A stretch of DNA of 34,778 nt from assembly GCA_025354785.1 (NCBI GenBank), contig JANXME010000347.1, positions 1 to 34,778 on the forward strand. Direction: 5' to 3'. Shown here one piece after another: positions 9,507 through 34,696 of the stretch (its first letter is position 1; each line of letters starts with the position of its first letter). The notes under the pieces were generated by a model. The model did no database searches. It was not told where the DNA came from and saw only the letters and a program-made list of their open reading frames with translations. The stretch comes from Actinomycetes bacterium. Lineage in GTDB: Bacteria; Actinomycetota; Actinomycetes; Nanopelagicales; Nanopelagicaceae. The position numbers were made by a program, and so were the translations under genes.

Positions 9507-9509
9507 ATC

Positions 9510-12244: not shown

Positions 12245-12254
12245 GCATGGTCAG

Positions 12255-13118: not shown

Positions 13119-13128
13119 GGAGTCCACA

Positions 13129-13386
13129 ATGACACGTAAAGAGTTTCATAAGTTGGTCAAGTCCCTGCATCCTTGCGCAGATGGCATGCGCCGCCTTCGT
13201 GCCAAAAAGGGGACAGTGTTGCAGGTGCTCAAACAATATGCCAAACACGAGCGTGTTTGGAATCCCCACAAACGCGGATATAAAATGAATTGTGATTTCT
13301 GCTGGTTACGCAATATGGTCTGTTGGTGGCGTACCACAATCTGTAAGATGATTTATAAGCAAATGAAACGCGCCAAGGTTATCTAA
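13129..13386 (+). CDS. MTRKEF-family protein, member 2
   Basis: AAGGAG RBS; MTRKEFHKLVKSLHPCADGMRRLRAKKGTVLQVLKQYA. Confidence 0.75.
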   Translation: MTRKEFHKLVKSLHPCADGMRRLRAKKGTVLQVLKQYAKHERVWNPHKRGYKMNCDFCWLRNMVCWWRTTICKMIYKQMKRAKVI

Positions 13387-17382: not shown

Positions 17383-18588
17383 ATGAAACTTCATTTCCAG
17401 GACGTGCCGATTCGGGTGTTGGATGTGATACGTACCCTGCAGGAGCATAAGCACCAAGCATATCTGGTGGGCGGGTGTGTGCGTGACATGCTCATGAGTG
17501 TCACTCCCAAAGATTGGGATGTGTGCACCGACGCGTTGCCAAAGCGGGTGATGAAGTATTTTCTGAGGACTATTCCTACCGGAATCGACCATGGGACAAT
17601 TACCGTGAATTCTGGTGGAGAAATGGTCGAGGTTACCACTTTCAGGTCTGAAAGCGGATTTACCGATGGTCGCCGCCCAGATGAGGTTGAGTACGAAATC
17701 GACATTAACGCAGATTTGCTGCGTCGCGATTTTACCATGAATGCAATCGCATGGGATCCAATCTTCAATGTGTTGGCTGACCCCTTCGATGGACAAGGCG
17801 ACATTGAGCGCAGAGTGATCCGTGCGGTTGGAGATGTCAACAAGCGCTTTAAGGAAGATGGGCTGCGTTGTATCCGTGCGATTCGGTTCCAAACTCGCAT
17901 GGGCTTTGAAATAGAGCCTGAAACGCATGCAGCAATCGGCGCCAACCTGGAGACCTTCGCTAAGGTTTCGATTGAGCGTCGCCAAGATGAATTTTTCAAG
18001 ATTCTAGTTATGCCCAACGCTCAAGAAGGGTTGATCGAACTGTGTGAAACGGGGCTGCTTGACCACATCCATCCGATGTTAAGCCAAAATGGGTGTTATA
18101 CCTGCCTGAACAATGTTAAGCCGACTGTAGAAATGCGGTTGGCGGCGCTGTTTTGCTCTTACGCCAATAGTTACATTAGCGATGAGGATTTACTCACCCC
18201 ACTTAAACTCCCTGCCAAGATGGAGGCATTTATTTTGACCGCACGTGAGCAAAAGTGTGTGCCGGGGAGACTAGGTCCAGTTGCAGACAGAGATATTCGC
18301 ATATGGATTCGCGCATGCGGGGACATTGATGCGAACGAATTGTTGGATATGTATGCAGCACTGACAGGTGAGAGTCCCAATAATTTTTTTAGAGTGCGCG
18401 GTCTTATTACACAACAGCCGCGCAAGTTGGCTTTGGATGGACATGAAATCAAGGAAGAATTGGGTTTGGCTAAACCAGGACCTTTGATTGGCAAGGCGAC
18501 CAAAATGTTGTGGTCTTTGGTTTTGGGTGATCCAAATATGAATACGCCCGAAATGCTGCGTGCCGCGCTGAGAGAGTACCATGAATAA
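17383..18588 (+). CDS. cca: CCA-adding enzyme / poly(A) polymerase-type tRNA nucleotidyltransferase
   Basis: YLVGGCVRDMLM..KDWDVCTDALP, TTFRSE, RDFTMNAIAWDP, DPFDGQGDIERRVIRAVG, F.EDGLRCIRAIRF motifs. Confidence 0.95.
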   Translation: MKLHFQDVPIRVLDVIRTLQEHKHQAYLVGGCVRDMLMSVTPKDWDVCTDALPKRVMKYFLRTIPTGIDHGTITVNSGGEMVEVTTFRSESGFTDGRRPDEVEYEIDINADLLRRDFTMNAIAWDPIFNVLADPFDGQGDIERRVIRAVGDVNKRFKEDGLRCIRAIRFQTRMGFEIEPETHAAIGANLETFAKVSIERRQDEFFKILVMPNAQEGLIELCETGLLDHIHPMLSQNGCYTCLNNVKPTVEMRLAALFCSYANSYISDEDLLTPLKLPAKMEAFILTAREQKCVPGRLGPVADRDIRIWIRACGDIDANELLDMYAALTGESPNNFFRVRGLITQQPRKLALDGHEIKEELGLAKPGPLIGKATKMLWSLVLGDPNMNTPEMLRAALREYHE

Positions 18589-18862
18589 CATGGCCGATGA
18601 TTTCCAGCGGCTGCTATATGACTTCCATGGTATCTCCGGAGTGTTCACATTCAAACACCCATGTGAAGGTATTGCCTGTGAAATCTGTTATAATGCCATC
18701 CGCGACTTCTTTAACAACTCCAACCCGCATGAGACTGAACGTGAATTCTGGTGTTATGATTGTGATACCTATGTAACTGTTACACGGCCAGATGGTGACT
18801 GGGTTAGTAAAGTGACCTGTATTGTCTGCGAAGAAAATCTCGCCGACAGCAATGGCACATGA
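18581..18862 (+). CDS. Cys-rich (zinc-binding-like) protein
   Basis: CEICYNAI..CYDCD..CIVCEE. Confidence 0.7.
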   Translation: MNNMADDFQRLLYDFHGISGVFTFKHPCEGIACEICYNAIRDFFNNSNPHETEREFWCYDCDTYVTVTRPDGDWVSKVTCIVCEENLADSNGT

Positions 18863-18868
18863 TTTGCT
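18853..18868 (+). promoter_or_regulatory. sigma-54-like promoter
   Basis: TGGCACATGATTTGCT; GG-N10-GC; 58 nt upstream of ATG 18926. Confidence 0.5.
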
Positions 18869-18925
18869 GCCTGGATTGCTGGAGCCACCTATACTCATAC
18901 GGGAAAACAAACGGGAGCAAGATCG

Positions 18926-19156
18926 ATGGCTGACCTGATTTTGACAAAGGAAGAAGAGAAGACCTTCAATGAGTGGCTGAAGGACCACCATGATAGATAT
19001 CATGGTGGTCGATATCCATACTCTGGAGCCGCTGGCGGAGCCATCTCCTTTCATTGGACCCAAACCGGCCTCGGCGACGAGACTACGGTCCACTGTGCCC
19101 ACTGCAAGAATAAACCCGAACACATCGGTCACTTAACCGACATCAGTCTATGGTAA
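18926..19156 (+). CDS. hypothetical protein
   Basis: MADLILTKEEEKTFNEWLKDHHDRYHGG... Confidence 0.65.
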   Translation: MADLILTKEEEKTFNEWLKDHHDRYHGGRYPYSGAAGGAISFHWTQTGLGDETTVHCAHCKNKPEHIGHLTDISLW

Positions 19157-19199
19157 AGGAATACTTGATGATTAAGCATCATTGATCTTAGGAGGCTAT

Positions 19200-19517
19200 A
19201 TGGCTGACAAAATAAAGAAACTTGAGATTCCAGTCGTCATAAATAAGATGACATGTTCAGATTGTGGCGTAGCATTTGGCGTGCCCGAATACTACGAAAC
19301 GACCCGCAAAAGCGACCACAAAACCTTCTATTGCCCCAATGGGCACGGTTTGACCTTTACTGGCAAAACTGATCAAGATACGATTAAAGACCTGAATTTA
19401 CAGCTAGATGCGCTCAAAGCAATCCTTAAATGCATATCTGATATAGAGATTGGCGTTGTGTTTAACAAAAATTCGCTAGAGATGGCGGTCCAACTTGCTA
19501 AAAGTGGTCTAAAGTAA
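19200..19517 (+). CDS. zinc-ribbon-like protein
   Basis: AGGAGG RBS; MTCSDCGVAFGVPEYY...FYCPNGH. Confidence 0.7.
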   Translation: MADKIKKLEIPVVINKMTCSDCGVAFGVPEYYETTRKSDHKTFYCPNGHGLTFTGKTDQDTIKDLNLQLDALKAILKCISDIEIGVVFNKNSLEMAVQLAKSGLK

Positions 19518-19732
19518 TGCAAGCGGTCGTGAAAATATATATCGATAAGGAAGTTGCTAGTAGGCTGAAGGCGCTGGGTATTTACATGGAGAGGGACGGC
19601 GTCCTAGATATTGATGGTATTCAAGAATACAACATACTAGAAGAGACTCATCAGCAAATCTTGCTATATTCCAAAACTGGCTTTGCCGATTTGACCTTTG
19701 AAGAGTTCATACGAGCTATCAATGACAAATGA
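19517..19732 (+). CDS. hypothetical protein
   Basis: TAATG overlap. Confidence 0.65.
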   Translation: MQAVVKIYIDKEVASRLKALGIYMERDGVLDIDGIQEYNILEETHQQILLYSKTGFADLTFEEFIRAINDK

Positions 19733-19880
19733 AGAGAGAAAAGAAGAGCACCGCAAGTGGTTGGCTGAATTGATGCGCGCCAAGTTAGAAGAATGGAAAA
19801 TTCATCCAGGACCAGTTGCATACCGACCAGCACTTGGCATGACTCTTGAATTTCATAAGCGAAAGGATCGCTCGAACTAA
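19722..19880 (+). CDS. hypothetical protein (MTNEERKEEHRKWLAEL...)
   Basis: overlap with upstream stop. Confidence 0.6.
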   Translation: MTNEERKEEHRKWLAELMRAKLEEWKIHPGPVAYRPALGMTLEFHKRKDRSN

Positions 19881-20329
19881 TGACACCGCCCGAATGGTTA
19901 ATTAACGTCGCAAAGAACAATTTGGTGGTAGCAGCATATATGAAGATGTGGCCTGTTGGCGAGTCTGACTGCGCCGCGTTTTTTGAGGCATTGGCTCAGG
20001 AACTGGCTCAGCAGGGAGCAGATCAATCTAGAGAATACGACCGTTTGGCTTTTGCAGCTAATGGGTTTTGTCTCGCCGTTGATGCAGCCGGCGTACATCA
20101 GCGTCGTGGACGTGGTGGTCAACAGGTGTCATTTCATGGCGATTTTGCCAGCATTACGCCATCGTCGCTAAGCCGACTGGAATGGCACGCAAGAAATATG
20201 CGAGATAACAAGGACAATCTTGAATACGCTATCTCTTTTATGGAGAAACAGGAACAAGATCTGCGTGCCGAAATTGCTACACTGGAAAGAAAGCTTAATG
20301 CCTTGATGGCTGAGAAGACAATCAAATGA
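19880..20329 (+). CDS. hypothetical coiled-coil protein
   Basis: TAATG overlap; 149 aa. Confidence 0.7.
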   Translation: MTPPEWLINVAKNNLVVAAYMKMWPVGESDCAAFFEALAQELAQQGADQSREYDRLAFAANGFCLAVDAAGVHQRRGRGGQQVSFHGDFASITPSSLSRLEWHARNMRDNKDNLEYAISFMEKQEQDLRAEIATLERKLNALMAEKTIK

Positions 20330-20661
20330 CAATTAAAGACATGGCACAAGAGGTCGTAGAAAAGATAGTGGAGCGTGAACTTGCTCCGGATATCGTCTTG
20401 GATATGGTGGGCGAGGTGTTAAACAACGAATACGACATAGCCGGAATCGCCACCGAACACATCGAGGAGATGGTTAAAGACTTAGATCCAGATGACGCCA
20501 TTTGTTCAGCTATTCAAGATAATCTTGACCTTGATGATAAGATCGAAAAATATCTTGCGGCTAGGGTCGACGAGCTCCTTGAGGCTGCTATTGACGAGCT
20601 CGATTTGGACGAAATGATTCAGGTGGCAATCGAAGACAAGCTTCAGGAACTTATTGAGTAA
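20326..20661 (+). CDS. acidic hypothetical protein
   Basis: ATGA overlap; Asp/Glu-rich. Confidence 0.7.
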   Translation: MTIKDMAQEVVEKIVERELAPDIVLDMVGEVLNNEYDIAGIATEHIEEMVKDLDPDDAICSAIQDNLDLDDKIEKYLAARVDELLEAAIDELDLDEMIQVAIEDKLQELIE

Positions 20662-20666
20662 ATAAA

Positions 20667-20963
20667 ATGAATAAGTATAATAAGTTGATCAAGCAGTTAA
20701 AGAAAATGGCTAAAACAATTGACCGCCTAGAAATGGTAGTCAAGTTTATAGCTCCACGATGTTCACACTGTGGACTTGGGATGGTGGTGCGTCAAAACTC
20801 GTATACCAGTAAGCTATTTTATGGATGTGCGCTATATCCTCATTGTAAAGATATGACTGGGTTATGCATGAATCTGGAGTGTCACCCTGCGCAACACCCA
20901 CATGGATATCATGGTGTCTCTAAACCACATGCGTATGTTAAGATTCATAAGGTTTTGGTCTGA
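20667..20963 (+). CDS. small protein with topoisomerase-type zinc-finger-like motif
   Basis: CSHCGLGMVVRQN..KLFYGCALYPHCKD. Confidence 0.7.
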   Translation: MNKYNKLIKQLKKMAKTIDRLEMVVKFIAPRCSHCGLGMVVRQNSYTSKLFYGCALYPHCKDMTGLCMNLECHPAQHPHGYHGVSKPHAYVKIHKVLV

Positions 20964-20997
20964 TTATGGACTACGATGGCGACTGCCCTTTCTAAAC

Positions 20998-21013
20998 GGG
21001 CACGCCGATTGCA
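20998..21013 (+). promoter_or_regulatory. sigma-54-like promoter
   Basis: GGGCACGCCGATTGCA; 34 nt upstream of ATG 21047. Confidence 0.7.
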
Positions 21014-21046
21014 AAAACCAATGGGACACACCACAGGAGCGACCCA

Positions 21047-21331
21047 ATGAGCGGTGAAATTCGACACAGTGGCGGTGAGTATGTTGACTCAGGGCTTCGA
21101 GACGTGAACGGCAAGCCCATCGAAAAATGGGTACGATCTTCCACCGAGGTGAAGTGCTGTGACGAGTGGGTATATTGCGGCGGCTTCACCAACACCTGTC
21201 CGTCCTGCGGGACCGACTACAACATGTCTGGTCAGCAACTTGCCCCTCGCAGCCAGTGGGGTGAAGACACTGGTGAGTCTCTGGCTGACATTCTCGACAT
21301 TGACTCCGGATGGGAATATGAAAATCGTTAA
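21047..21331 (+). CDS. phage Cys-rich protein (IRHSGGEYVDSGL...YNMSGQQLAPRSQWGEDTGES), paralog of 25996-26280
   Basis: strong alignment with 25996 ORF. Confidence 0.85.
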   Translation: MSGEIRHSGGEYVDSGLRDVNGKPIEKWVRSSTEVKCCDEWVYCGGFTNTCPSCGTDYNMSGQQLAPRSQWGEDTGESLADILDIDSGWEYENR

Positions 21332-21339
21332 GGTGCCAC

Positions 21340-21672
21340 ATGACTGCCTACTTCACGACCACCATTTCGCGGCCAATCCCCAATAGTGAAGACGAAGTAG
21401 AAATCGAAATCGCTGTGTTTGGCGATTACGAGCCATTCGTCCCCGCCCGCGTTAGTGGGCCACCGGAGGATTGCTACCCTTCTGAAGGCGGTTACGCTCA
21501 AGATGTGTATGCAGTGTTTGACGATGAGGGTAATGACCGGCTGATCCCACTTACCAAAGAAGAACTCGACAGTTTTGAAGAACCGATGGCTCAAGCAATT
21601 ATGGATTGTGAAGAAGCCGCCTATGAAAGGGCTATGGAGAATCGTTATGACGCAGACAAAACTCGCGACTGA
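21340..21672 (+). CDS. hypothetical protein
   Basis: MTAYFTTTISRPIPNSEDEVEIEIAVFGDYEPFVPARVSGPPEDCYP. Confidence 0.7.
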   Translation: MTAYFTTTISRPIPNSEDEVEIEIAVFGDYEPFVPARVSGPPEDCYPSEGGYAQDVYAVFDDEGNDRLIPLTKEELDSFEEPMAQAIMDCEEAAYERAMENRYDADKTRD

Positions 21673-21820
21673 TGCCGTCCCGGCGCATACCCACGCCCCG
21701 CTTGGCCCCGTGCGAGCGCGCTTTAAACTCCTGCTCATGCGGGTGGTGCTCATCGGCCCGGTGGCCGCACTCATCGCGGATCGTATCGCGCACGCGCTCG
21801 GCTTTTGCCTAGGGTTCTAG
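21647..21820 (+). CDS. small protein with C-terminal TM segment
   Basis: overlapping start. Confidence 0.5.
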   Translation: MTQTKLATDAVPAHTHAPLGPVRARFKLLLMRVVLIGPVAALIADRIAHALGFCLGF

Positions 21821-21822
21821 TT

Positions 21823-22086
21823 ATGGCTAACCATTACGCAGGCGAAATTGGTGAATGTGATACCGGATTGTGTGGGCGATGCGCCTTCCGTACATACAAG
21901 ATTGTACGGTCGTATCCAGATTATGCTGGCCGATCCAGGTATGGATATAGAGCGAAGACGATTAGGCGTGGACTAAGTCTAGCGGCTGTCCGAGCGCATT
22001 GCGCCAATCCTGACGCATGCAGTATGACCACTACTAAGCCTCTGCGCAACGGCGAGAGATATTTCGACTCATACTATGAAGAGTAA
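21823..22086 (+). CDS. hypothetical protein
   Basis: MANHYAGEIGECDTGLCGRCAF... Confidence 0.65.
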   Translation: MANHYAGEIGECDTGLCGRCAFRTYKIVRSYPDYAGRSRYGYRAKTIRRGLSLAAVRAHCANPDACSMTTTKPLRNGERYFDSYYEE

Positions 22087-22312
22087 CACTCGTGACATTT
22101 GTAGCAATTGCCATCCGAGGATGGCTGAGCATGCTACAGTATCTAAGTGTGATGATTGTAGGAGTGAAAACGAACCACCCTACAAAGAATTGCTCAATAA
22201 AGTACGCCAAGATGACGGACAGTGCACATACTGCCCTCCGAACAAGGGTGAAAACACACCACGTCGTGCCAGACATGGCTCCCAAAAGTCTAGAAAGAGG
22301 GATAAACGATGA
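22076..22312 (+). CDS. Cys-rich basic protein
   Basis: CSNCHPRM..CDDCRS..CTYCPP. Confidence 0.6.
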   Translation: MKSNTRDICSNCHPRMAEHATVSKCDDCRSENEPPYKELLNKVRQDDGQCTYCPPNKGENTPRRARHGSQKSRKRDKR

Positions 22313-22863
22313 AACTGAACGATAAGTTGATTGTAGCGAAGAAATTCTCCGCGATGATGTTTGAGGATTTAGGGAAGCGTTATGGCGATGCTCCTAACGA
22401 CCACCCATATTCTAAGCATACACAAGATGTTGTAGATGTGCTGCTGTCGTTTGGCATAACTGACCGTGACATTTTGGCGGCTGCATATCTGCACGATACG
22501 TTGGAAGATACCCCGGTCACAAAGGCAATGCTAAGCGAGTTCTTTGGAGACACGGTGGCTGACTATGTTGATTCAGTAACCGACATGCCCGGCGCGAATC
22601 GCAAAGAACGCAAGGCTGCAACATATCCTAAGACTCGTGCCAACCCAGTCGGCATTCAGATAAAACTGGCTGATCGCATTGCGAATGTGCAATTTTCCAT
22701 TCTTACCAAGAACGAGCGAATGTTTCGTATGTACTATAAGGAGCGTATTGAATTTGACAAACAACTACGAACCGACGACCACCCCCGTATGTGGGAATCA
22801 CTTGATTATCTGATGTACACTGGATTGCCGCACATTAAAGGAGAACTTAACCCGCATGAATGA
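22309..22863 (+). CDS. HD-domain hydrolase, SpoT/MESH1 (p)ppGpp-hydrolase-like
   Basis: SKHTQDVVDVL, AAYLHDTLEDTPVT, FFGDTVADYVDSVTD, KLADRIANV motifs. Confidence 0.8.
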   Translation: MKLNDKLIVAKKFSAMMFEDLGKRYGDAPNDHPYSKHTQDVVDVLLSFGITDRDILAAAYLHDTLEDTPVTKAMLSEFFGDTVADYVDSVTDMPGANRKERKAATYPKTRANPVGIQIKLADRIANVQFSILTKNERMFRMYYKERIEFDKQLRTDDHPRMWESLDYLMYTGLPHIKGELNPHE

Positions 22864-23228
22864 AATTCCAACAAAACGTGTCTGGTTTGTTGCTTGTGGA
22901 TGTTATCGACAAGGATGGGTGGCGGAATATCTTGAAAAGAGGGATTGAAAATTGGCCCACAGATGGCAGCCGCCCGTATATATGCGGGCCTCCTTGGGAG
23001 CCCGCCGTGCTTGATCTACCAAACTGTAAAGCCATCCATGCCGAAGGAGTTAAGTGCCCCCGGTGTGGGCATTGGCATATGGTGAGTGTAAATTGGGATA
23101 ATTGGTGCGATCGATGCTGCCGTGTCTTCATTGAAGAATATCCTGACCACGAGTACACCTTCTCTATCAAAGAAGCCTACCGCGTCCAACGTGAGAGATG
23201 GCATGTTGGCGAATATGCTACAAAATGA
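22860..23228 (+). CDS. hypothetical Cys-containing protein
   Basis: ATGA overlap; CPRCGHWH. Confidence 0.7.
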   Translation: MKFQQNVSGLLLVDVIDKDGWRNILKRGIENWPTDGSRPYICGPPWEPAVLDLPNCKAIHAEGVKCPRCGHWHMVSVNWDNWCDRCCRVFIEEYPDHEYTFSIKEAYRVQRERWHVGEYATK

Positions 23229-23246
23229 CACCCAGCGTAAATCTTA

Positions 23247-23528
23247 ATGCTCACTAATATATCCAAAGCACATGTGACCACCCCAAATCTAGATAAAGAA
23301 CGATACATCGCCTGGGATGGTCATTGTTTCTATCTAGATAAATATAGTGGCAAGACATTTGTCCACTCTGTATGGTGCAGATGTAGGCACAAAAACCAGT
23401 TGCATACCGATGATATGCCTGAAGATATGAAAGTGGCAGCTTTCATATGGAATAAAGCGAACTTTGTGGCCATACCTCTGCAAGAATTCCTCGAAAAGAT
23501 TTATGTCGATTCCAAATCGCCTCCTTAA
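23247..23528 (+). CDS. hypothetical protein
   Basis: 93-aa ORF, coherent. Confidence 0.65.
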   Translation: MLTNISKAHVTTPNLDKERYIAWDGHCFYLDKYSGKTFVHSVWCRCRHKNQLHTDDMPEDMKVAAFIWNKANFVAIPLQEFLEKIYVDSKSPP

Positions 23529-23532
23529 TCGG

Positions 23533-23548
23533 TGGCACCACGATTGCA
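23533..23548 (+). promoter_or_regulatory. sigma-54-like promoter
   Basis: TGGCACCACGATTGCA; 64 nt upstream of ATG 23612. Confidence 0.7.
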
Positions 23549-23611
23549 AAAAGTCGTTGTACTGGTGGCAATAATGCCTCCAAGACCGGCCACACGGCCA
23601 GGAGTTGCAAA

Positions 23612-24235
23612 ATGGAGTCGATTCGTTCAGTTGAGGTTGTGAAGGCGGAAGTGGATGCGAAGCTCAAGACGAAGGAGAGTGTCGCGGGTATGCAGTTCAT
23701 CAATTCGAAGGGGTCCGTTGGAACCATTCTGGAGGCTCTCTCAGGGCGCGGCAAGCTCCAGGCGAGCATGACCTGCGTGGAGGGCGGACCTGACCACATC
23801 CGGGAGCGCTCCGACTGGCACCAGTGCTACCTTTCGCCGGAGAAGGCGAAGAATAAGCCGCGCAAGACCGGCGGTCCGAACACCGGCATGTCGCTCCGCA
23901 CTCCGGATGGCACTCTGCTCAGCTACAAGGCGATCGTCGAGGATGACAGCGATGAGGTGAAGGCCGCGAAGGAGCTCAACAACGAGGCGTTCGCCACCGC
24001 CAAGATGGCCCGTGATGCCGCCGAAGCTGTCGAGAAGACCAACAAGGTGACTCTTCGCGCTCAGAAGCAGGAAGAGGCACGGCAGGTCCGCAAGGCCGCA
24101 AAGGACGCGGAGACGGCTGCCGCATTCAAGGCGAGCGCGAGCAAGCTGAAGGAGTACGCGGACAGCATCGGCGCGAAGGTGTCGCCCAATGCCCCGCAGG
24201 TCAGCGAGTCGACGGACGAGACGGTCCAGGCGTAA
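23612..24235 (+). CDS. hypothetical protein, paralog of 4548-5003
   Basis: GMQF...GKLQASMTC...DHIRERSDWHQ; coiled-coil C-term. Confidence 0.8.
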   Translation: MESIRSVEVVKAEVDAKLKTKESVAGMQFINSKGSVGTILEALSGRGKLQASMTCVEGGPDHIRERSDWHQCYLSPEKAKNKPRKTGGPNTGMSLRTPDGTLLSYKAIVEDDSDEVKAAKELNNEAFATAKMARDAAEAVEKTNKVTLRAQKQEEARQVRKAAKDAETAAAFKASASKLKEYADSIGAKVSPNAPQVSESTDETVQA

Positions 24236-24239
24236 TGGT

Positions 24240-24673
24240 GGTGAATTCTGGTTCCTTGCTCACGGAGAGCAGGGGTAATTAGGGCATGCACTCCCTTTCC
24301 CGATTTATTCCCCGCTACAGGTTAGTTAAGGGTGGGCTTGCCAGTCCACGATGTTCTGCAGTACCTCGTGGAAATATCTGGGCCCAGTACCTTAGGCCGT
24401 CCAATTCGGCCGGTGGGGGTTGTGGGTGTGATAGGTTGTATAGAGGAAGTGTGGCCGCCGTGCACTGTCAGCGGCATGTGCATTGAGCTCCACCCAAAAA
24501 TAATTTGGGCTAAAACGTAAGCGAACACGGAATGCTCTATTGAGATAGCATGGTAGATAGGGGTGGTGCCCTGAAGTGCTGTGTAATGTAGATGTGAGAA
24601 CCGTAAGTAAGCCACACCTAGAGAGAACTAACCACCTTAATAGGCCGGGGTTCAAGTCCCCGGTAGCCCACCA
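24240..24673 (+). ncRNA. candidate structured ncRNA ending in tRNA-like T-arm plus CCA
   Basis: no credible ORF; multiple hairpins; GCCGGGGTTCAAGTCCCCGGTAGCCCACCA at 3' end. Confidence 0.45.
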
Positions 24674-24678
24674 ATTCT

Positions 24679-24843
24679 ATGATTAAATATATCGTTATAG
24701 TTGATAAACACAACAAAAAAAGCTTTGAATCGTGGGATGACGCTAAGGCGTGGGCAGATGTTCAGGCGGCGCGCAAGAAGGTTAACAGTGTCATCATATT
24801 TTATGTAAGATCTAGTGATACCCATTCATACATACTCAAATGA
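24679..24843 (+). CDS. 54-aa protein (MIKYIVIVDKHNKKSFESWDDAKAW...)
   Basis: ATGA overlap with 24840 CDS. Confidence 0.6.
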   Translation: MIKYIVIVDKHNKKSFESWDDAKAWADVQAARKKVNSVIIFYVRSSDTHSYILK

Positions 24844-25250
24844 AGATTCTAATCTTAGATGATGACGATTGTCGTCACAATCGTTTCAAACTTCATCTAT
24901 TGGGGAACCATTTCCTCACGCACGCGCGAACATATGATGAGTTCGTGACGGCGATGATGACAGACACATTTGATGTGATTTTTCTCGATCACGATCTCAA
25001 TTACGAGGAGTATGTCTCCAAGGATAAAAATGGTTGTGAGCTCACTGGATATCATGCAGCACTTTGGATCGTGAAGAATCTCCAACTGGAGACTCGCCCA
25101 AATAACATCGTCATTCATTCACATAACATGGGTGGAGTGATCCAGATGTTAGGCATATTGAAAGATGCTGGATATAACCCAAAGATCTGGGAGTTCTCCC
25201 CAGCAGAGAATCCGCTAGAAGGTGCGGGACTAGGGCCGGCAAATGAGTAA
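24840..25250 (+). CDS. cREC-like (cyclic-phosphate-processing) receiver domain protein
   Basis: MKILILDDDDCRHNRF...DVIFLDHDLNYEEY...TGYHAALWIV...VIHSHNMGGVIQM. Confidence 0.75.
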   Translation: MKILILDDDDCRHNRFKLHLLGNHFLTHARTYDEFVTAMMTDTFDVIFLDHDLNYEEYVSKDKNGCELTGYHAALWIVKNLQLETRPNNIVIHSHNMGGVIQMLGILKDAGYNPKIWEFSPAENPLEGAGLGPANE

Positions 25251-25295
25251 TGGAAGAGATTTATGAGCATCATCAAAAGCGAGATGCAGAACGGT

Positions 25296-25311
25296 CGGCA
25301 TGACGATTGCA
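25296..25311 (+). promoter_or_regulatory. sigma-54-like promoter
   Basis: CGGCATGACGATTGCA; 36 nt upstream of ATG 25347. Confidence 0.65.
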
Positions 25312-25346
25312 GAATGGTGTGTACCCCGCCACAAAGGAGTACCAAA

Positions 25347-25937
25347 ATGGAACTCGCAATCGAGCCGCCAGTCAAGTACACCGCCAATTTCCTTGGCGAA
25401 GATGTGTCGTCGATTTATACCAAAATGAGTGTGCTGCCTTGGGATAGGCACAGCGCAAACATGTATGGCAAGAAGATTGACATGCCGCGATTCTTCGTTT
25501 GGATGGGTATTCCACCGCTCAAGCTGTACGGGGCACCTGTGCCGACGATTGAGTGGACCCCAGAGGCTATCGATGTGCGCGAACGTGTCCAGAAAGCGAC
25601 CGGCGTGCTTTACGATAGCCTCAATATCAACATGTACCGGGACGAAAATGATTATCTTGGATGGCACATCGACCCGGAAGACGAGGGTCGGTGGGATTAT
25701 CCCATTGCCAGCGTAACGCTCGGTGCTGAACGACAGTTCCAGATGCGCCAATACATCAAGAATGAGGGCTCAAGTAAGAAGGTCCCGGTTGGCGACATCC
25801 ACAGCATCACGCTTGGCCATGGCAGCCTTCTGTTGATGCCGCCCGGCTTCCAAGCGGGCTGGTTACACCGCGCCCCTAAGAGCAATAAGAAATGTATCCG
25901 CCGCATTAACCTGACCTTCCGGCGTATGGCCCCCTAG
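25347..25937 (+). CDS. alkB-like: AlkB-like 2OG-Fe(II) oxygenase
   Basis: NINMYRDENDYLGWHIDPED...IASVTLGAERQFQMR...HGSLLLMPPGFQAGWLHRAPKSNK..RINLTFR. Confidence 0.9.
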   Translation: MELAIEPPVKYTANFLGEDVSSIYTKMSVLPWDRHSANMYGKKIDMPRFFVWMGIPPLKLYGAPVPTIEWTPEAIDVRERVQKATGVLYDSLNINMYRDENDYLGWHIDPEDEGRWDYPIASVTLGAERQFQMRQYIKNEGSSKKVPVGDIHSITLGHGSLLLMPPGFQAGWLHRAPKSNKKCIRRINLTFRRMAP

Positions 25938-25941
25938 GGGC

Positions 25942-25957
25942 CGGTACGGCGGTTGCA
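25942..25957 (+). promoter_or_regulatory. sigma-54-like promoter
   Basis: CGGTACGGCGGTTGCA; 39 nt upstream of ATG 25996. Confidence 0.55.
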
Positions 25958-25960
25958 GCA

Positions 25961-25987
25961 CCCGGTGTGGAACACAACCACACCGGG
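25961..25987 (+). repeat. 10-bp perfect leader hairpin next to the RBS
   Basis: CCCGGTGTGG-AACACAA-CCACACCGGG then AGTCCAAAATG. Confidence 0.7.
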
Positions 25988-25995
25988 AGTCCAAA

Positions 25996-26280
25996 ATGAG
26001 CGAAATCCGACGTAGTGGCGGCGAATATGTTGACTCTGGATTGACTGATGCTGACGGCAAGAGCATCCAGAAGTGGCAGCGGTCAAAGGTTGAGGTGAAG
26101 TGCTGCGGCGAGTGGTTCCACTGTGGTGGATTTACCAACACCTGCGAATACTGCGGTGCCGACTACAACATGTCGGGTCAGCAGCTTGCCTCACGCAGCC
26201 AGTGGGGTGAAGACACCGGGGAGTCGGTTGACGACATCCTGAGTGTGGACACCGACTACGCGTCGTACGACGGAGAATAA
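25996..26280 (+). CDS. phage Cys-rich protein, paralog of 21047-21331
   Basis: IRRSGGEYVDSGLTDADGK...YNMSGQQLASRSQWGEDTGES. Confidence 0.85.
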   Translation: MSEIRRSGGEYVDSGLTDADGKSIQKWQRSKVEVKCCGEWFHCGGFTNTCEYCGADYNMSGQQLASRSQWGEDTGESVDDILSVDTDYASYDGE

Positions 26281-26282
26281 GG

Positions 26283-26513
26283 ATGTATCTAGTCACCTCC
26301 TATAGCGACACGTGGCTCATCGGCGCCATGAAGATCTTCAGTAAGAAGACCGCTGCTCGCAAGTATTACGAATCCGTACGAGCAGCGATCGGATATGCAG
26401 TCTGCTATCAGGTCCATAGCGATTGGACTCTGCCCGAGTTAATCTGGAATCATGTCTCCGATTTGAGGGAGGTCACTGGCTCGCCCGGAGTTGGCGAAGA
26501 CGAAGCTGGCTAA
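26283..26513 (+). CDS. hypothetical protein
   Basis: MYLVTSYSDTWLIGAMKIFSKK... Confidence 0.65.
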   Translation: MYLVTSYSDTWLIGAMKIFSKKTAARKYYESVRAAIGYAVCYQVHSDWTLPELIWNHVSDLREVTGSPGVGEDEAG

Positions 26514-26517
26514 GAAG

Positions 26518-26583
26518 ATGACTAAAGTTAAGGTTGGCACCATGAAGCGGGGCGATTTAATCGGCGTGTGGTCCGGGGAGTGA
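26518..26583 (+). CDS. 21-aa micropeptide
   Basis: MTKVKVGTMKRGDLIGVWSGE; uncertain. Confidence 0.3.
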   Translation: MTKVKVGTMKRGDLIGVWSGE

Positions 26584-26585
26584 AA

Positions 26586-26813
26586 ATGGCGAGTAAGACC
26601 AAGGCGAGTAAGATTGAGGTGATAGACCTTGCTAACGAACCTATGGTCTATGTTAACACTCAGGACTATAGGGATGCAATCGACGGCACCATGCCAGCTA
26701 CGCTGTTCTCGCTTGCGTATGACTGGATGGATAAACCACATCGGCTGGTCTACGACCTATGTAATGAGATTGATCGCCTTAGAGCGAAATATGAGGACCC
26801 CAATGGCAAATGA
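26586..26813 (+). CDS. hypothetical protein
   Basis: MASKTKASKIEVIDLANEPMVYVN... Confidence 0.65.
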   Translation: MASKTKASKIEVIDLANEPMVYVNTQDYRDAIDGTMPATLFSLAYDWMDKPHRLVYDLCNEIDRLRAKYEDPNGK

Positions 26814-27078
26814 CTTTTACGAGGCCATATATGATGGCAGGTATACAACCAAACTCCGATGGGCGTCACATACTCAAGACCCAGTGGCCTGTAGGGCACA
26901 CAAGGAAGACGTATGTGCTTTGGAGGCCCTGTTTAAAACAGACCTCTTGGCTGAATATGACGTTACCAACAATCCAAAAGCTGATCTTTGCTATGCAAAG
27001 GCATGGGACATGGGACACGCCAATGGACTCCACGAGGTGGCGATGTATTTTGAGGATTTGGTAGGTCTGATCAAGTAG
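26803..27078 (+). CDS. hypothetical protein
   Basis: MANDFYEAIYDGRYTTKLRWASH...; overlap. Confidence 0.7.
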   Translation: MANDFYEAIYDGRYTTKLRWASHTQDPVACRAHKEDVCALEALFKTDLLAEYDVTNNPKADLCYAKAWDMGHANGLHEVAMYFEDLVGLIK

Positions 27079-27086
27079 GAGGTTGT

Positions 27087-27671
27087 ATGTCAAAGACTAA
27101 GAAAAAGAAACTGGTCGCCCACGACCTCGATGGATGCATGTGCGATTGGGATGGCGCTATGAAACGCGACCTGACTGCCATGCTATTGCCCGGTGAGGCT
27201 TCATTGCCACCCATTCTCGATCCAAATGTCCCTGAGTATCGGGACCGATGTGAAATTATCAAGGGCCGTCCTGGCTGGTGGCTAAACTTGGTGCCGCTTG
27301 CCAGCGGCTTCAAACTATATGAACTGGTCAAGGAAATTGGTTTCAAGAGCCAAGTCCTGACCAAAGGACCTCGACGTTTTCCAATGGCATGGGCAGAAAA
27401 GGTTCAGTGGTGTGCTGCCCATATGCCGGGCGTCGGTGTAAACATCGTAATGAACAAGGAACTTTTCAACGCGGATGTGCTCATCGATGATTTTCCTCCG
27501 TACAACATGAAATGGCTGGACCGCCACCCAAACGGCCTCGTAATTATGCCAGATCGCCCGTGGAATCAGTGGTGGAACCACCAGCGGGCATTTAGGTACC
27601 GGGATGGCGTAGAAGAGCCGGCAGATTTTCAATTGGTTAAAGCTGTTCTGGAAGCAAAGTTTAACGAATAG
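27087..27671 (+). CDS. HAD-like phosphatase / 5'-nucleotidase-like
   Basis: VAHDLDGCMCDWDGAM; LTKGPRRFPMAWAEKVQW; ADVLIDDFPPY. Confidence 0.75.
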   Translation: MSKTKKKKLVAHDLDGCMCDWDGAMKRDLTAMLLPGEASLPPILDPNVPEYRDRCEIIKGRPGWWLNLVPLASGFKLYELVKEIGFKSQVLTKGPRRFPMAWAEKVQWCAAHMPGVGVNIVMNKELFNADVLIDDFPPYNMKWLDRHPNGLVIMPDRPWNQWWNHQRAFRYRDGVEEPADFQLVKAVLEAKFNE

Positions 27672-27866
27672 GGACGCGAGTGCCCGTGGATTTTTGTAGT
27701 AAGGGTTTGTAAAACGCCTGAGTCAGTATGACCCAAAGCTACCTGTTCGGAGGAGGGCTAGTGTGCCTGGATACTCCGTCAGATCTTAAATAATCTGCTA
27801 TTGCTTTTGCTGCGGAGTCACAACCCACTGCTGTTTTTATGACGACGATAGGAAGAGGAGAAGAGT

Positions 27867-28151
27867 ATGGATAGTGTAAAGAAGAATAGTGTTGACAATA
27901 AGGAAGAGTTAGAATCTCTTTTGTTTCAGATGCGCGAAGAAGGTAGTGGAACCACCAGATTGCAGTGGTTTTGCATGGTGTTGTTCGTTTCTGACCTTAT
28001 CTGCGGGTTGGTCGCACCGCAGATCAAGGCGTGGTATGGAGCGATTCCAGTTCTTTTCACGTTCGTAGTCTATCTGCTCAGCCTAGCAAACCAGCGCGCC
28101 AAGTTGGTTACCATTAACACTCTCTTGGAGCTCGGCCGTCGCATGTCGTGA
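27867..28151 (+). CDS. membrane protein
   Basis: GGAGAAGAGT-ATG; two hydrophobic segments. Confidence 0.7.
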   Translation: MDSVKKNSVDNKEELESLLFQMREEGSGTTRLQWFCMVLFVSDLICGLVAPQIKAWYGAIPVLFTFVVYLLSLANQRAKLVTINTLLELGRRMS

Positions 28152-28378
28152 AAACTCCGCCAATTGGACAGGTCGTTTGGCGGTCGGTTGGTGGCATGGT
28201 TGTTGCAGACTGGGTTTGTATGGTGCGAGTGGCACACGGCTGCCCAGATCCGAGGCATAAAAGGGCTTGTACGTGTGCAGATGAGGTGGGTGTGGTAAAA
28301 TGGGGTTTGACTGGCGACCGACATCAACCAGATGTTGATGCCTGGAAGGAGCGTGTGATTCCATGGTACTTTGGGTAA
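28148..28378 (+). CDS. hypothetical protein, start uncertain
   Basis: GTG start; sigma-54-like site lies inside the N-terminal part. Confidence 0.45.
   Translation: MKTPPIGQVVWRSVGGMVVADWVCMVRVAHGCPDPRHKRACTCADEVGVVKWGLTGDRHQPDVDAWKERVIPWYFG
28192..28207 (+). promoter_or_regulatory. sigma-54-like promoter
   Basis: TGGCATGGTTGTTGCA; GG-N10-GC. Confidence 0.5.
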
Positions 28379-28569
28379 GTAAAGGTGGTCGACGTCGTGT
28401 GCTTTATGATGGCACCTTCCTGAACTTTGAACATCTGTACACTCACAAAGGTAATTCTAAATGGGTGTCAATGGATTCGGCCACATTTTTGCACAGCCTC
28501 CCAACTAAGAAAGATGTTAAGGCCGTGTGGCCGACAACCCGCAAAGGAGGCACCTGGGATGAATATTGA
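28363..28569 (+). CDS. hypothetical protein
   Basis: MVLWVSKGGRRRVLYDGTFLNFEHLYTHKGNSKW. Confidence 0.6.
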   Translation: MVLWVSKGGRRRVLYDGTFLNFEHLYTHKGNSKWVSMDSATFLHSLPTKKDVKAVWPTTRKGGTWDEY

Positions 28570-28711
28570 ACTCATCGTCGACCATGAAGGTCTTGAGATT
28601 TATGGATTGGTCGAGCACGGTAGTTTAGAAGACCGGGTGCTCTATGAGGGCTCTAAGACAGAGGTGTTGAGCTTTTATCTGGGCATGGTTGGCCCGCAGG
28701 CTGAGGCATGA
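28559..28711 (+). CDS. hypothetical protein
   Basis: AAAGGAGG RBS; MNIELIVDHEGLEIYGLVEHG. Confidence 0.65.
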   Translation: MNIELIVDHEGLEIYGLVEHGSLEDRVLYEGSKTEVLSFYLGMVGPQAEA

Positions 28712-28920
28712 GACTTATGACTCCGGGTGATGCTTTACAGTTCGTTGGGTGTCGGGTCCAGAAGCACTCTGGTAAGCCTTTTAAATCGACATTTATCACC
28801 GCCACGGTCGCTGGAGCAGTCTACTCACCATATCCAGGACGGTCCGATAGGGTGGCCTTTGTCTTCGAAGAAGATGATTCGATTGTTGAGTGTAATTTGC
28901 TGGATTTCGCCATCATTTAA
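28708..28920 (+). CDS. hypothetical protein
   Basis: ATGA overlap. Confidence 0.65.
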   Translation: MRLMTPGDALQFVGCRVQKHSGKPFKSTFITATVAGAVYSPYPGRSDRVAFVFEEDDSIVECNLLDFAII

Positions 28921-28930
28921 GGAGTATAAC

Positions 28931-29404
28931 ATGTCTGAAGAATTGCCTATTGTCGAAAAGAAGACGTGCTTGGTGGCGCGTGGTATTCCCGGCGCCGGCA
29001 AGTCTACTCTTCTCTCTAAAAGGGCGCCCAACGCGCTTGTCTGTTCTGCTGACCACTTTTTTATCGGCGCGGATGGCAAGTATGTTTTCGACGCGTCGAA
29101 ACTGAGGGGTGCTCACGAAAGTAGTTTCAATAAATTCCGACTGGCGGTGGCCGGTGGCGCCCCAATGGTCGCAGTCGATAATACCAACCTCACTTGGTGG
29201 GAGATGGGACGATATGTCGAGCTCGCGCTTGGTGTCGGATATCAGGTTGAGGTGCTGGATGTGCAGACCCCACCGGACGTGGCAGCTGCGCGTGGCATTC
29301 ATGGTGTCCCGGCAGAGCACGTCCAGAAGATGGCGCGCAAGAAGCTTGAGGTACCGGAGAATGTTCGTGCCAATCCGAATTTCAAGTACACTACGATCAA
29401 GTGA
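28931..29404 (+). CDS. P-loop kinase, polynucleotide-kinase-like (AAA_33 type)
   Basis: ARGIPGAGKSTLLSKRA; VAVDNTNLTWWEMGRYVELA; AAGGAG RBS. Confidence 0.85.
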   Translation: MSEELPIVEKKTCLVARGIPGAGKSTLLSKRAPNALVCSADHFFIGADGKYVFDASKLRGAHESSFNKFRLAVAGGAPMVAVDNTNLTWWEMGRYVELALGVGYQVEVLDVQTPPDVAAARGIHGVPAEHVQKMARKKLEVPENVRANPNFKYTTIK

Positions 29405-29459
29405 GTCATCAATGCGGCGAACCTAGATAAATGTACGACCATGTTTGCCGCTGCCTGAT

Positions 29460-29475
29460 TGGCACGGTTCTTGCA
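29460..29475 (+). promoter_or_regulatory. sigma-54-like promoter
   Basis: TGGCACGGTTCTTGCA; 27 nt upstream of TTG 29502. Confidence 0.75.
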
Positions 29476-29501
29476 ATTTCCCCGTGTGGAGGACGCCCCA
29501 T

Positions 29502-29648
29502 TTGTCATCGGAACAGTCTAAGAGCACCATAAAGAACACTCGTGAACTCATCGATAAGCTGTTGGAGGAGGCCCGCAACGACATAGAACAAGCGAAGGAA
29601 ACTCTCCGAAAGGCTGCCGCAGAACAAGGCCATAAAATCAAACTCTAA
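29502..29648 (+). CDS. small helical protein, TTG start
   Basis: GGAGG RBS; LSSEQSKSTIKNTRELIDKLLEEARND. Confidence 0.55.
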   Translation: MSSEQSKSTIKNTRELIDKLLEEARNDIEQAKETLRKAAAEQGHKIKL

Positions 29649-29662
29649 CCACAGGACAGACG

Positions 29663-29971
29663 ATGAAGATCCTTGCAAAGGACCAGTTGGACGAGAATAT
29701 TGCTTTCGTTGATGAGTGTATTAGTCTGGGTGCGCACACGCCGCCAACCTTCATTCTTGCTGCTGATGTGGTACCTGAAGTGGGTGTGGTTGTGGTCGTC
29801 TTCTCAGATAGGACGGTCGCTTCGATGGAATTCAGTGAGTTCACCCCCAACCCGACTGCAACCCCAGACTTTTCTGACTTGGAAATCATCGATCATGGGC
29901 TGACGCTCCGTCTTGGGTCATACGAGGTCGATGTGGGAACCTTTATGAGCGGTTGGACCAACATAGACTAG
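29663..29971 (+). CDS. hypothetical protein
   Basis: MKILAKDQLDENIAFVDECISLG... Confidence 0.7.
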   Translation: MKILAKDQLDENIAFVDECISLGAHTPPTFILAADVVPEVGVVVVVFSDRTVASMEFSEFTPNPTATPDFSDLEIIDHGLTLRLGSYEVDVGTFMSGWTNID

Positions 29972-29978
29972 GGCTACA

Positions 29979-30050
29979 CGGCCCATAGCTCAGGGGTAGA
30001 GCAAGCACCTTATAAGTGCTAGGTCGTTGGTTCGAAGCCAACTGGGCCGA
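29979..30050 (+). tRNA. tRNA-Ile(TAT), no encoded CCA
   Basis: acceptor CGGCCCA/TGGGCCG; anticodon loop CTTATAA; T-arm GTTGG-TTCGAAG-CCAAC. Confidence 0.93.
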
Positions 30051-30052
30051 CT

Positions 30053-30531: not shown

Positions 30532-31377
30532 TTGAATTTACACAAGCATAACCAGGAACATACTGAAGAATCGCATCGAGAAAGGTGCTCTGATATGATA
30601 GAGGAATACAAACTAAATATGGGCAACATGAAGGGTGGTGTAGTGGTATACTACACCTCTAATGAGTTAGATGCACTCCATGAACAAGCTAAGGTGTCAT
30701 TTGAAAAGTTGTTGGCCTATAACAACGATTTGCGACTAAAATACTCCTCTGGGCTATGTAAAACAGATAAATATTATTATTTTAATCGAAATTTCGCAAG
30801 TGATTTAAAATTCTTGGGTACACATAATCTCCATAGTCACATGCTTCTAGACTATGGCAAGGAGATTCTTGCCTGTCTAGACGATAATGACAAGGAGATT
30901 GAGCGTGATATGAAAAAGAATGCCGAATTCGTTCGGCATTGCAAGAAAGATAATGTGAAATCTGCTGATTATTTTATGTGGCTTGTATATGAGCCGTGGA
31001 CGATTCCAGAGTATTACACAGATGCCGGCAATGTAATTGACACTTGGGTCGCACGTTGTATCTGGAAAGATTTAAAGTCCAAATGCAATCTCTGCAATGT
31101 ATCTATTTCACCTGGACGGCTTGTCGCGCATCAAGCATCAACGCAATGTGCAAATAAAGCTCTTAGCTATAAAGCTCATCAGGCGGGTTATGTGTATACG
31201 GCTAATCAGGCCATAGTCAGGGCGGTAAAAGCCGGAACACTGGTTGGCGAAAAGGTCCCAACCCACTACTCAATTTATGTGCCAGAGTGGACTATAAAGG
31301 CTGCCGAAATATATGCCAAAAACAAAGACTATGCTGGCATGTCTTTTGTAGAATTTGTTAACAGCATGAAACCATGA
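30532..31377 (+). CDS. hypothetical 281-aa protein with Cys/His motif
   Basis: TTG start; CNLCNVSISPGRLVAHQ..C. Confidence 0.65.
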   Translation: MNLHKHNQEHTEESHRERCSDMIEEYKLNMGNMKGGVVVYYTSNELDALHEQAKVSFEKLLAYNNDLRLKYSSGLCKTDKYYYFNRNFASDLKFLGTHNLHSHMLLDYGKEILACLDDNDKEIERDMKKNAEFVRHCKKDNVKSADYFMWLVYEPWTIPEYYTDAGNVIDTWVARCIWKDLKSKCNLCNVSISPGRLVAHQASTQCANKALSYKAHQAGYVYTANQAIVRAVKAGTLVGEKVPTHYSIYVPEWTIKAAEIYAKNKDYAGMSFVEFVNSMKP

Positions 31378-31863: not shown

Positions 31864-32043
31864 ATGTATAATCGAGACGAATTAGAGCGTGAAATAATTA
31901 GGTCAGCGGTGAAGATGTTCGCTGACTACCACGTTCTCTACAAGAATATGTTGCGAGGCAATAAAGATAGCAATGAGGCTAAGCTTCTCAAGGCAGTCGA
32001 GCTTTATGAAGCACATAAGGATATCATACATGACAGTAAATAA
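31864..32043 (+). CDS. 59-aa helical protein
   Basis: MYNRDELEREIIRSAVKMFADYH... Confidence 0.6.
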   Translation: MYNRDELEREIIRSAVKMFADYHVLYKNMLRGNKDSNEAKLLKAVELYEAHKDIIHDSK

Positions 32044-33331
32044 GAAGGTTCAGATTATTGGCGGTGGTACGATCGAGCATGTGGCGGCGCACCTGGCTCT
32101 GTCTGCTCCCGCATATGGTCAGACCGCTCGCAGATTGTCGGAGCTCGCTAAGGAACTATGTTACTCGCTCGACACCATCCTGACTTTGACCAAGATGGCA
32201 GGTGGGGATGTAATCGAGACTAATAGTGATGTGTCTCGTTGGGTTGCGAATATCATCAATGATCCGCTCACCAAGATTGTGTTCTTCAACGTGGCTCTGG
32301 TCGATTTCGGTGGCGCAGTATGGACGTTGCGTGACACGGATGTTGCGACCACAGAGTTTTGTGATCCGCTGCCACACGGTAAGTATGCTACCCGCCTGCA
32401 GAGTAATCTGAAGGATATCGATGGATATGCTATTGAGCTTATTCCGACTGACAAGATTGTAGATCGCATCCGGGCAATCCGTAAGGATATCACGTTGGTC
32501 GCGTTCAAGACTACATGCGGAGCAACGGAGGATGAACAGTACATTGCCGGCCTCAACCTGTTGAAGCGTGCCTCGTGCAATTTGGTATTGGCAAATGACG
32601 TCAAGACCCACGTGAATATGGTCATCACTCCCGAAGAAGCTAGATATCACGTCACCACTGACCGTGATGAGGCACTCCGTGGGTTGGTTGAGATGGCCAG
32701 CTTGCGCTCTCATCTTACATTCACCCGGTCCACTGTACTACAGGGAAACCCGATACCGTGGCAGTCAGAGTTGGTTCCGGACACCTTGCGTACGGTCGTC
32801 AATTATTGCATCAGCGAAGGTGCCTATAAACCTTTCAGAGGTGCGACGGTTGGACATTTTGCTTGTCGCCTGGAGGGTACACACGACGAGTTTTTGACGT
32901 CACGACGCAAGACCAATTTCAATGACCTGGACAAGCTGGGGCTTGTTCGTATCAAGACTGACGGGCCAGATTCGGTTATTGCTTATGGATCCAAGCCGAG
33001 TGTTGGTGGCATGTCTCAGCGGATTATCTTCAAAGAGCATGAAGGTTACGACTGTATCGCCCATTTTCACTGTCCCATCAGGCCCGGCTCCAAGGTCCCA
33101 ATCGTTTCCCAGCGTGAGTTTGAGTGTGGAAGTCACGAATGCGGCAACAACACATCCTCGGGTTTGCGAGAGTTTAGAGCAGGTGATCATAAGATCTTGG
33201 CTGTTTACCTTGACCAGCACGGACCGAATATCGTGTTTAAACGAGATGTTGACCCATACGCCGTCATCAAGTTCATAGAACAGAATTTTGATCTCAAGGG
33301 GAAGACCGGTGGGTTCGTCGAAATTAAATAG
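32030..33331 (+). CDS. fusion: CoaB/DFP-like Rossmann N-terminus plus class II aldolase-like C-terminus
   Basis: VQIIGGGTIEHV...VFFNVALVDFGG...VAFKTTCGATEDEQY..LKRASCNLVLANDV; C-term CIAHFHCPIRPGSKVPIVSQREFECGSHECGNNTSSGL. Confidence 0.75.
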   Translation: MTVNKKVQIIGGGTIEHVAAHLALSAPAYGQTARRLSELAKELCYSLDTILTLTKMAGGDVIETNSDVSRWVANIINDPLTKIVFFNVALVDFGGAVWTLRDTDVATTEFCDPLPHGKYATRLQSNLKDIDGYAIELIPTDKIVDRIRAIRKDITLVAFKTTCGATEDEQYIAGLNLLKRASCNLVLANDVKTHVNMVITPEEARYHVTTDRDEALRGLVEMASLRSHLTFTRSTVLQGNPIPWQSELVPDTLRTVVNYCISEGAYKPFRGATVGHFACRLEGTHDEFLTSRRKTNFNDLDKLGLVRIKTDGPDSVIAYGSKPSVGGMSQRIIFKEHEGYDCIAHFHCPIRPGSKVPIVSQREFECGSHECGNNTSSGLREFRAGDHKILAVYLDQHGPNIVFKRDVDPYAVIKFIEQNFDLKGKTGGFVEIK

Positions 33332-34661: not shown

Positions 34662-34696
34662 TCGTTGCTGCCTTGGTTAAATTGGAGTGTACGTTT

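Follow-up and report, generated by a model that had tools for sequence, protein, structure and literature searches.

A likely tRNA-repair and maintenance kit dispersed along a large phage binned with a freshwater actinobacterium

Jumbo phages encode RNA ligases, polynucleotide kinases, cREC proteins, 2H proteins, HAD phosphatases, a CCA-adding enzyme and Thg1, which have been interpreted as repair against host attack on tRNA (Iyer et al. 2021, PMC7824862; follow-up PMC9503650). Here we analyse a stretch of 34,778 bp (the window) that is an entire contig (JANXME010000347.1, hereafter C351) of a 1.95-Mb metagenome-assembled genome of an actinobacterium. Five genes had been singled out in it by an earlier sequence-only reading: those for a CCA-adding enzyme, a cREC protein, an AlkB-family protein, a HAD phosphatase and a P-loop kinase. 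We read the window as one end of a recovered large-phage genome along which a tRNA-repair and maintenance kit is dispersed, with its genes on one strand and not in an operon, and we give this reading a probability of roughly 0.7. The phage is a good new example of the toolkit already known from giant phages, and the system is not of a new type.

The five proteins are all encoded on the + strand, about where they had been placed, and all score above the curated Pfam cut-offs by which the hits of window proteins were judged. The genes do fall within the proposed ~12 kb, but they are not a tight cluster. Many unrelated small genes lie between them, the CCA enzyme gene and the cREC gene are 6.3 kb apart, and the sole directly adjacent pair among the five is cREC and AlkB, separated by 12 bp. 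The window looks like part of a large tailed phage because its genes are dense, small and on one strand, because they have PHROG matches and because their nearest relatives in phage collections are huge or large phages. A near-identity DNA search against phages gave zero matches for the window. Gene calls are open frames only, and the phage genome is incomplete, with ~100 kb recovered once the window is joined to a second contig (C128). The bin has a CCA-adding enzyme of its own on another contig (C315), with its closest homologues in uncultured freshwater actinobacteria including Candidatus Planktophila, and the bin therefore probably belongs to these bacteria.

Two RNA ligases on an overlapping contig

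The sequence-only reading had seen no ligase in the window, and indeed no RNA ligase is encoded within it. Yet a profile search of the bin with PF09414 returned one RNA ligase on C128, a contig of 65.6 kb that meets the 3′ end of the window, and a second ligase (PF09511) was found on the same contig. This removes the main objection to a repair pathway. The two contigs are linked by an exact overlap of 126 bp, in which window positions 34653-34778 match C128 65022-64897 (blastn, 100%). Because the match lies on the minus strand of C128, both contigs share their coding direction. In the joined coordinates used below, window 34653 equals C128 65022.

C128 is also phage DNA, with UvsX, a primase-helicase and genes that are nearly all on one strand. 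The tetranucleotide correlation of window positions 17-35 kb with pieces of C128 is 0.75-0.87, versus 0.67 with the pooled host contigs. Furthermore, the C-terminal 50 amino acids of the protein encoded at window 30532-31377 form a short domain that is repeated several times in different C128 proteins. Copies of this domain occur only on C351 and C128, bar one weak match on C132, a 17-kb contig of similar composition. The alternative flank of C128 (65023-65566) holds an HNH-endonuclease-like gene that abuts the 3′ end of a tRNA-Leu gene without a gap, and the tRNA-Leu of the window is intact. The HNH-like sequence is apparently a polymorphic insertion in the phage population, which would account for the contig break at the end of the window.

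If the window and C128 came from unrelated phages that had been binned together, the ligases would be irrelevant to the five genes. The sequences are indeed separate contigs, positions 1-17 kb of the window differ somewhat in composition (GC 0.48-0.60; tetranucleotide correlation of 0.47-0.67 with C128 pieces), and the 126-bp overlap might be a repeat. However, the overlap is exact and takes up the last bases of the window, the coding direction and the repeated domain are shared, and the HNH-like insertion next to the 3′ end of tRNA-Leu explains the break. In addition, LR756511, a distant phage of 595 kb, holds homologues from both contigs. We consider an origin from unrelated phages very improbable.

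In joined coordinates, the Rnl2-type RNA ligase (PF09414) lies at ~37.0-38.0 kb, 2.2 kb past the end of the window, and the Rnl1-type RNA ligase (PF09511) at ~77.8-78.9 kb, adjoined by a putative nucleotidyltransferase at ~78.9-79.6 kb. Thg1 is found at ~47.1-47.9 kb, PTH2 at ~53.3-53.7 kb and a 2H-like protein at ~43.8-44.3 kb. These are family matches, save for the nucleotidyltransferase and the 2H-like protein, for which the matches are weak. The recovered sequence of this phage, which is uncultured and shares its bin with a freshwater actinobacterium, therefore holds two RNA ligases, Thg1, PTH2, a CCA enzyme, a PNK-like kinase, cREC and 13 tRNA genes. C128 also encodes SpoU (~35.7-36.3 kb) and a DNA ligase (~44.6-46.0 kb), both by family match.

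C128 further contains, at 12037-13167 on its minus strand, an adenylosuccinate synthetase that resembles PurZ (phrog_1211; NCBIfam PurZ 153 bits, below the cut-off of 300) and carries WGSSAKG where GDEGKGK is usual. By means of such an enzyme the phage might make 2-aminoadenine DNA.

P-loop kinase, cREC and AlkB

The P-loop kinase (28931-29404, + strand, 28931 being the likelier start) belongs to a phage polynucleotide-kinase-like family (PF13671 AAA_33, 47 bits; phrog_2071). Its Walker A, D41, N84-T85 and HxVP motifs are conserved, and the profile of the family matches the solved kinase domains of Pnkp (4gp7), T4 PNK (1ly1, 1ltq) and mammalian PNKP. When ten phage loci with a kinase homologue were opened, a T4 Rnl1-type ligase was adjacent to the kinase or one gene away in eight. 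The pairing is seen in Pontus, Pyxpy02, PVP-SE1, 2L372X and ACP17 (annotation and phmmer), in DC31, in Nitrincola 1M3-16, where the ligase scores 27.3 bits, just below the Pfam cut-off of 28.3, and in LR756511, where the kinase (8147-8536) is followed by the ligase (8856-9911). For ParMal1 and V45v66, no ligase was seen near the kinase within the stretch opened. Because of this pairing and of the profile match to Pnkp, T4 PNK and PNKP, the best reading of the window protein is a 5′-OH RNA kinase. Its own gene is 7.5 kb from the Rnl2-type ligase and not beside Rnl1, which is ~48 kb off in joined coordinates. The pairing of such a small stand-alone kinase with an Rnl1-type ligase is open to direct test.

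The cREC protein (24840-25250, + strand; PF20274, 56.3 bits against a cut-off of 27) is a predicted cyclic-phosphate-processing enzyme of receiver fold. The opening of cyclic phosphates by cREC remains a prediction in the literature (PMC7824862; PMC9503650). The window protein keeps the conserved residues: the LDD, DHDL and HS.N motifs common to 13 other phage cRECs are all present, the Arg after LDD being shifted by two positions. We found cREC in 14 of the 43 phage records searched, most of them AlkB-bearing; the published frequency, up to 18% of jumbo phages, comes from a set that is not matched to these 43 records.

Downstream of cREC lies the gene for an AlkB-family Fe(II)/2-oxoglutarate dioxygenase (25263-25937, + strand; PF13532, 70.5 bits). 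H135, D137, H202, R214 and R220 (HxD...H plus two distal Arg) are invariant across the alignment of phage AlkB proteins. Among solved structures, ALKBH3 comes closest, followed by ALKBH2. ALKBH3 acts on RNA as well as on single-stranded DNA. Two cysteine-containing paralogues of 94 amino acids, 72% identical, are encoded on either side of the cREC-AlkB region (window 21047-21331 and 25996-26280), and no further copies were found in the bin.

The AlkB protein may belong to the RNA-repair set, where it would clear the tRNAs of the phage or of its host of m1A/m3C-type methyl lesions, an addition compatible with the repair kit proposed here. The jumbo phages XacN1 (4992-8682) and RAS14 (4941-9248) carry a row of AlkB, AAA_33 kinase, Hen1 and Pnkp-type ligase, the last two annotated merely as methyltransferase and metallophosphoesterase in XacN1 and as hypothetical proteins in RAS14. 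In LR756511, AlkB comes after a calcineurin-like phosphoesterase and the homologue of the HAD protein. These rows, the 12-bp distance from cREC in the window and, as a suggestive point only, the proximity to ALKBH3 speak for membership. Against it, the next nearest relative, ALKBH2, is a DNA enzyme, and the neighbours of AlkB are diverse across 72 IMG/VR AlkB loci. When 115 genes flanking AlkB were scanned as a pool, without a distant-gene control, no systematic link to RNA repair emerged: RtcB, HAD_SAK_2 and NT5C each appeared once among the AlkB-neighbour families listed (25 of 62). Nor does the cREC-AlkB pair seem to be conserved: the two genes were not seen side by side in any other cREC-bearing phage for which coordinates were compared. 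For the viral contigs, a single-protein scan with AlkB gave no matches and alignment queries succeeded. The membership of AlkB in the repair kit is a suggestive lead, possible but some way short of probable.

A wider proposal, which we regard as rather doubtful, is that in large phages the demethylation of nucleic acids by an ALKBH3-like AlkB is coupled to the healing and ligation of RNA ends, so that methylation damage to tRNAs is undone as well as cleavage. Such a coupling would take two forms, the cREC-AlkB pair of the window and the AlkB-kinase-Hen1-Pnkp ligase row of XacN1 and RAS14. This row provides a concrete hypothesis of an RNA-acting phage AlkB, whereas a role in resetting DNA methyl marks has been suggested for the AlkB of jumbo phages (Iyer et al. 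2021, PMC7824862). Full-text searches turned up no paper that connects AlkB of phages with operons for RNA ligation, which is weak evidence of novelty.

CCA-adding enzyme, tRNA genes and a nucleotidase-like HAD protein

Judged by sequence, the product of 17383-18588 (+ strand, 401 amino acids) is a full-length class II CCA-adding tRNA nucleotidyltransferase (PF01743, 120 bits, and PF12627; phrog_2244). It aligns with the solved structure 1miv over nearly its full length (residues 12-398, E 7.5e-55), its best match being the CCA-adding enzyme 6ibp, and it scores 267 bits against NF009814 (E 2.5e-79; cut-off 290). The GGxVRD, DxD, RRDFT and ED(x)LR motifs are visible in the translation and in the alignment to 6ibp. 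Its predicted role is the repair and maturation of tRNA 3′ ends.

The tRNA-Ile that had been reported to lack an encoded CCA does so according to ARAGORN, Rfam and its 3′ flank: tRNA-Ile(UAU) occupies 29979-30051 on the + strand (RF00005, 65.8 bits) and is followed by CTATGA. A tRNA-Leu(CAA) at 34579-34661 (+ strand; ARAGORN; Rfam, 56.4 bits), followed by TCGTTG and also without CCA, is the first of a tRNA group that runs on into C128. With the 11 tRNA genes of C128 (Rfam), the phage has 13, and CCA is encoded in none of them. A further ARAGORN call in the window, tRNA-Asp at 5957-6040, was discarded for want of Rfam support. Elsewhere in the bin, contig C283 (5.1 kb) holds ~11 tRNA genes in an array, and almost all of them encode CCA. 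Its composition is unlike that of host or phage, and it is probably another mobile element.

The HAD phosphatase (27087-27671, + strand) is of the NT5C type (PF06941, 44.2 bits, cut-off 24.8). The profile of its family matches 5′(3′)-deoxyribonucleotidases (2jao, E 4.6e-9). Its AlphaFold model has a pLDDT of 87.7, and its top 16 Foldseek matches consist of deoxyribonucleotidases and of proteins designed on their scaffold, with TM-scores to deoxyribonucleotidases of 0.66-0.76 by query length. In relatives, HAD is found beside AlkB, near NAD-salvage or nucleotide genes and also near ligases; it lies within 5 kb of the ligase in 3 of 49 Rnl2 loci, which we judged not clearly above chance. We rejected a role as RNA 3′-phosphatase as the leading reading, because deoxyribonucleotidases outcompeted it in both profile and fold searches and the neighbours in relatives are mixed. 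The protein is most likely a 5′(3′)-deoxyribonucleotidase of nucleotide metabolism, outside end healing. This corrects the sequence-only reading, which had counted it as the end-healing phosphatase and had named activity on nucleotides alone as grounds for dismissal, an outcome that is now predicted for this protein; the end-healing interpretation holds up for the kinase, the CCA enzyme and the cREC motifs, but not for HAD. A calcineurin-like protein on C128 could stand in as 3′-phosphatase. In the metagenomic phage record LR745208 the HAD gene (19953-20509) is frameshifted, possibly through an assembly error.

Another window gene (22309-22863, + strand) encodes an HD_4 protein resembling the SpoT hydrolase (PF13328, 43.7 bits; partial match to TIGR00691 spoT_relA, below cut-off), which is a possible phage (p)ppGpp hydrolase. 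Homologues are found near the kinase-RNA ligase pairs of Pyxpy02 and ACP17.

All these genes could also be a loose assortment of the translation and nucleotide-metabolism enzymes of a big phage, with no integrated repair pathway. The CCA enzyme would then serve the CCA-less tRNAs, AlkB would repair or demethylate DNA, HAD would cleave deoxynucleoside monophosphates and the HD protein would hydrolyse (p)ppGpp. The profile and fold of HAD agree with this, as do the dispersal of the genes, the diverse AlkB neighbours in IMG/VR phages and the suggested resetting of DNA methyl marks (PMC7824862), and the 13 CCA-less phage tRNA genes suffice alone to explain the CCA enzyme. In contrast, two RNA ligases, Thg1, PTH2 and a PNK-like kinase have few roles beyond RNA end processing and ribosome rescue, and the recurrent pairing of kinase and RNA ligase across unrelated phages is unlikely to be random. 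We hold a loose assortment to be unlikely.

The repair kit and its known counterparts

In the tRNA-repair kit that we favour, the trigger would be the cutting of tRNAs by host ribotoxins or anticodon nucleases, and the whole would act in counter-defence. cREC, and perhaps the 2H protein of C128, would open 2′,3′-cyclic phosphates, the P-loop kinase would phosphorylate 5′-OH ends, and the Rnl1- and Rnl2-type ligases would reseal the tRNAs. Lost nucleotides would possibly be replaced by the nucleotidyltransferase adjacent to Rnl1, by Thg1 and by the CCA enzyme, which could also mature the tRNAs from the 13 CCA-less phage genes. PTH2 would free stalled peptides.

Co-conservation of the genes, which the sequence-only reading had proposed as a check, is partly seen. 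LR756511 shares the CCA enzyme, kinase, Rnl1, PTH2, Thg1, 2H, AlkB and HAD (tblastn), has Rnl2-type ligases as well (profile search) and shows the kinase-ligase pairing, but the linkage of AlkB to repair genes is occasional. By tblastn, LR756511 has counterparts of 6 of 10 core RNA-repair genes versus 14 of ~169 other predicted genes (Fisher p 1.5e-4). In 6 of 49 IMG/VR loci, Thg1 lies downstream of the Rnl2 homologue by no more than 1.4 kb. Of the genes found in both phages, the best conserved (56% identity) encodes a 452-aa protein at window 31973-33331, one half of which weakly matches CoaB/DFP and the other half class II aldolases. As a marker it gave only weak partial matches in 297 genomes of the phylum; a single-protein scan of viral contigs gave no matches with it and alignment queries succeeded.

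Several observations weigh against the repair kit. The genes are scattered over ~100 kb of joined sequence, with only cREC-AlkB and Rnl1-nucleotidyltransferase noted as adjacent pairs, and the join of C351 and C128 rests on the contig overlap, without read support. cREC was not found in LR756511. The Fisher test above is confounded, since searches pick up conserved enzymes more readily than unknown genes. As the HAD protein is nucleotidase-like, a dedicated RNA 3′-phosphatase was not identified. Finally, most sampled host tRNA genes also lack an encoded CCA, so that the CCA-less state of the phage tRNAs is not distinctive.

Comparison with the jumbo-phage complement shows that ATP-grasp RNA ligases, polynucleotide kinase, cREC, 2H, CCA enzyme, Thg1, peptidyl-tRNA hydrolysis and tRNAs are common to both; the published accounts present all of these as countering attack on the translation apparatus (PMC7824862; PMC9503650). 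The phage differs in that the HAD protein here is of the NT5C type, and not a PNK-HAD or Swiss-army-knife HAD, in that sirtuin, KptA and Nudix were not seen, no search being aimed at them, and in that the genes are dispersed, with ~100 kb recovered against the >200 kb of jumbo phages. As in the Pnkp/Rnl1 tRNA repair of T4, which counters PrrC, a 5′-OH kinase (predicted here) is combined with an Rnl1-type ligase. Unlike T4 Pnkp, this kinase is a stand-alone domain with no fused 3′-phosphatase, Rnl1 is ~48 kb away, and CCA enzyme, Thg1, Rnl2 and cREC are extra. The Vequintavirus neighbourhood of Sir2, RNA ligase, kinase and cREC (Escherichia phage V5, Salmonella PVP-SE1) contains a homologue of the kinase, one gene away from an Rnl1-type ligase, and its cREC is also matched in the window; in contrast, no sirtuin was seen near the window genes, which do not form a single conserved operon. 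With the bacterial Pnkp-Hen1 RNA repair system (PMC4411300), the link is the profile match of the kinase to Pnkp kinase domains. Hen1 and a Pnkp-type ligase were not identified among the scanned window and C128 proteins, whereas the jumbo phages XacN1 and RAS14 have kinase, Hen1 and Pnkp ligase beside AlkB. Lastly, although Thg1 and Rnl2 are ~9 kb apart here (joined coordinates), unlike in the Thg1-PNK-RNA ligase neighbourhoods described previously (PMC2904730), the phage has the same functional set, and Thg1 is found near Rnl2 in its relatives.

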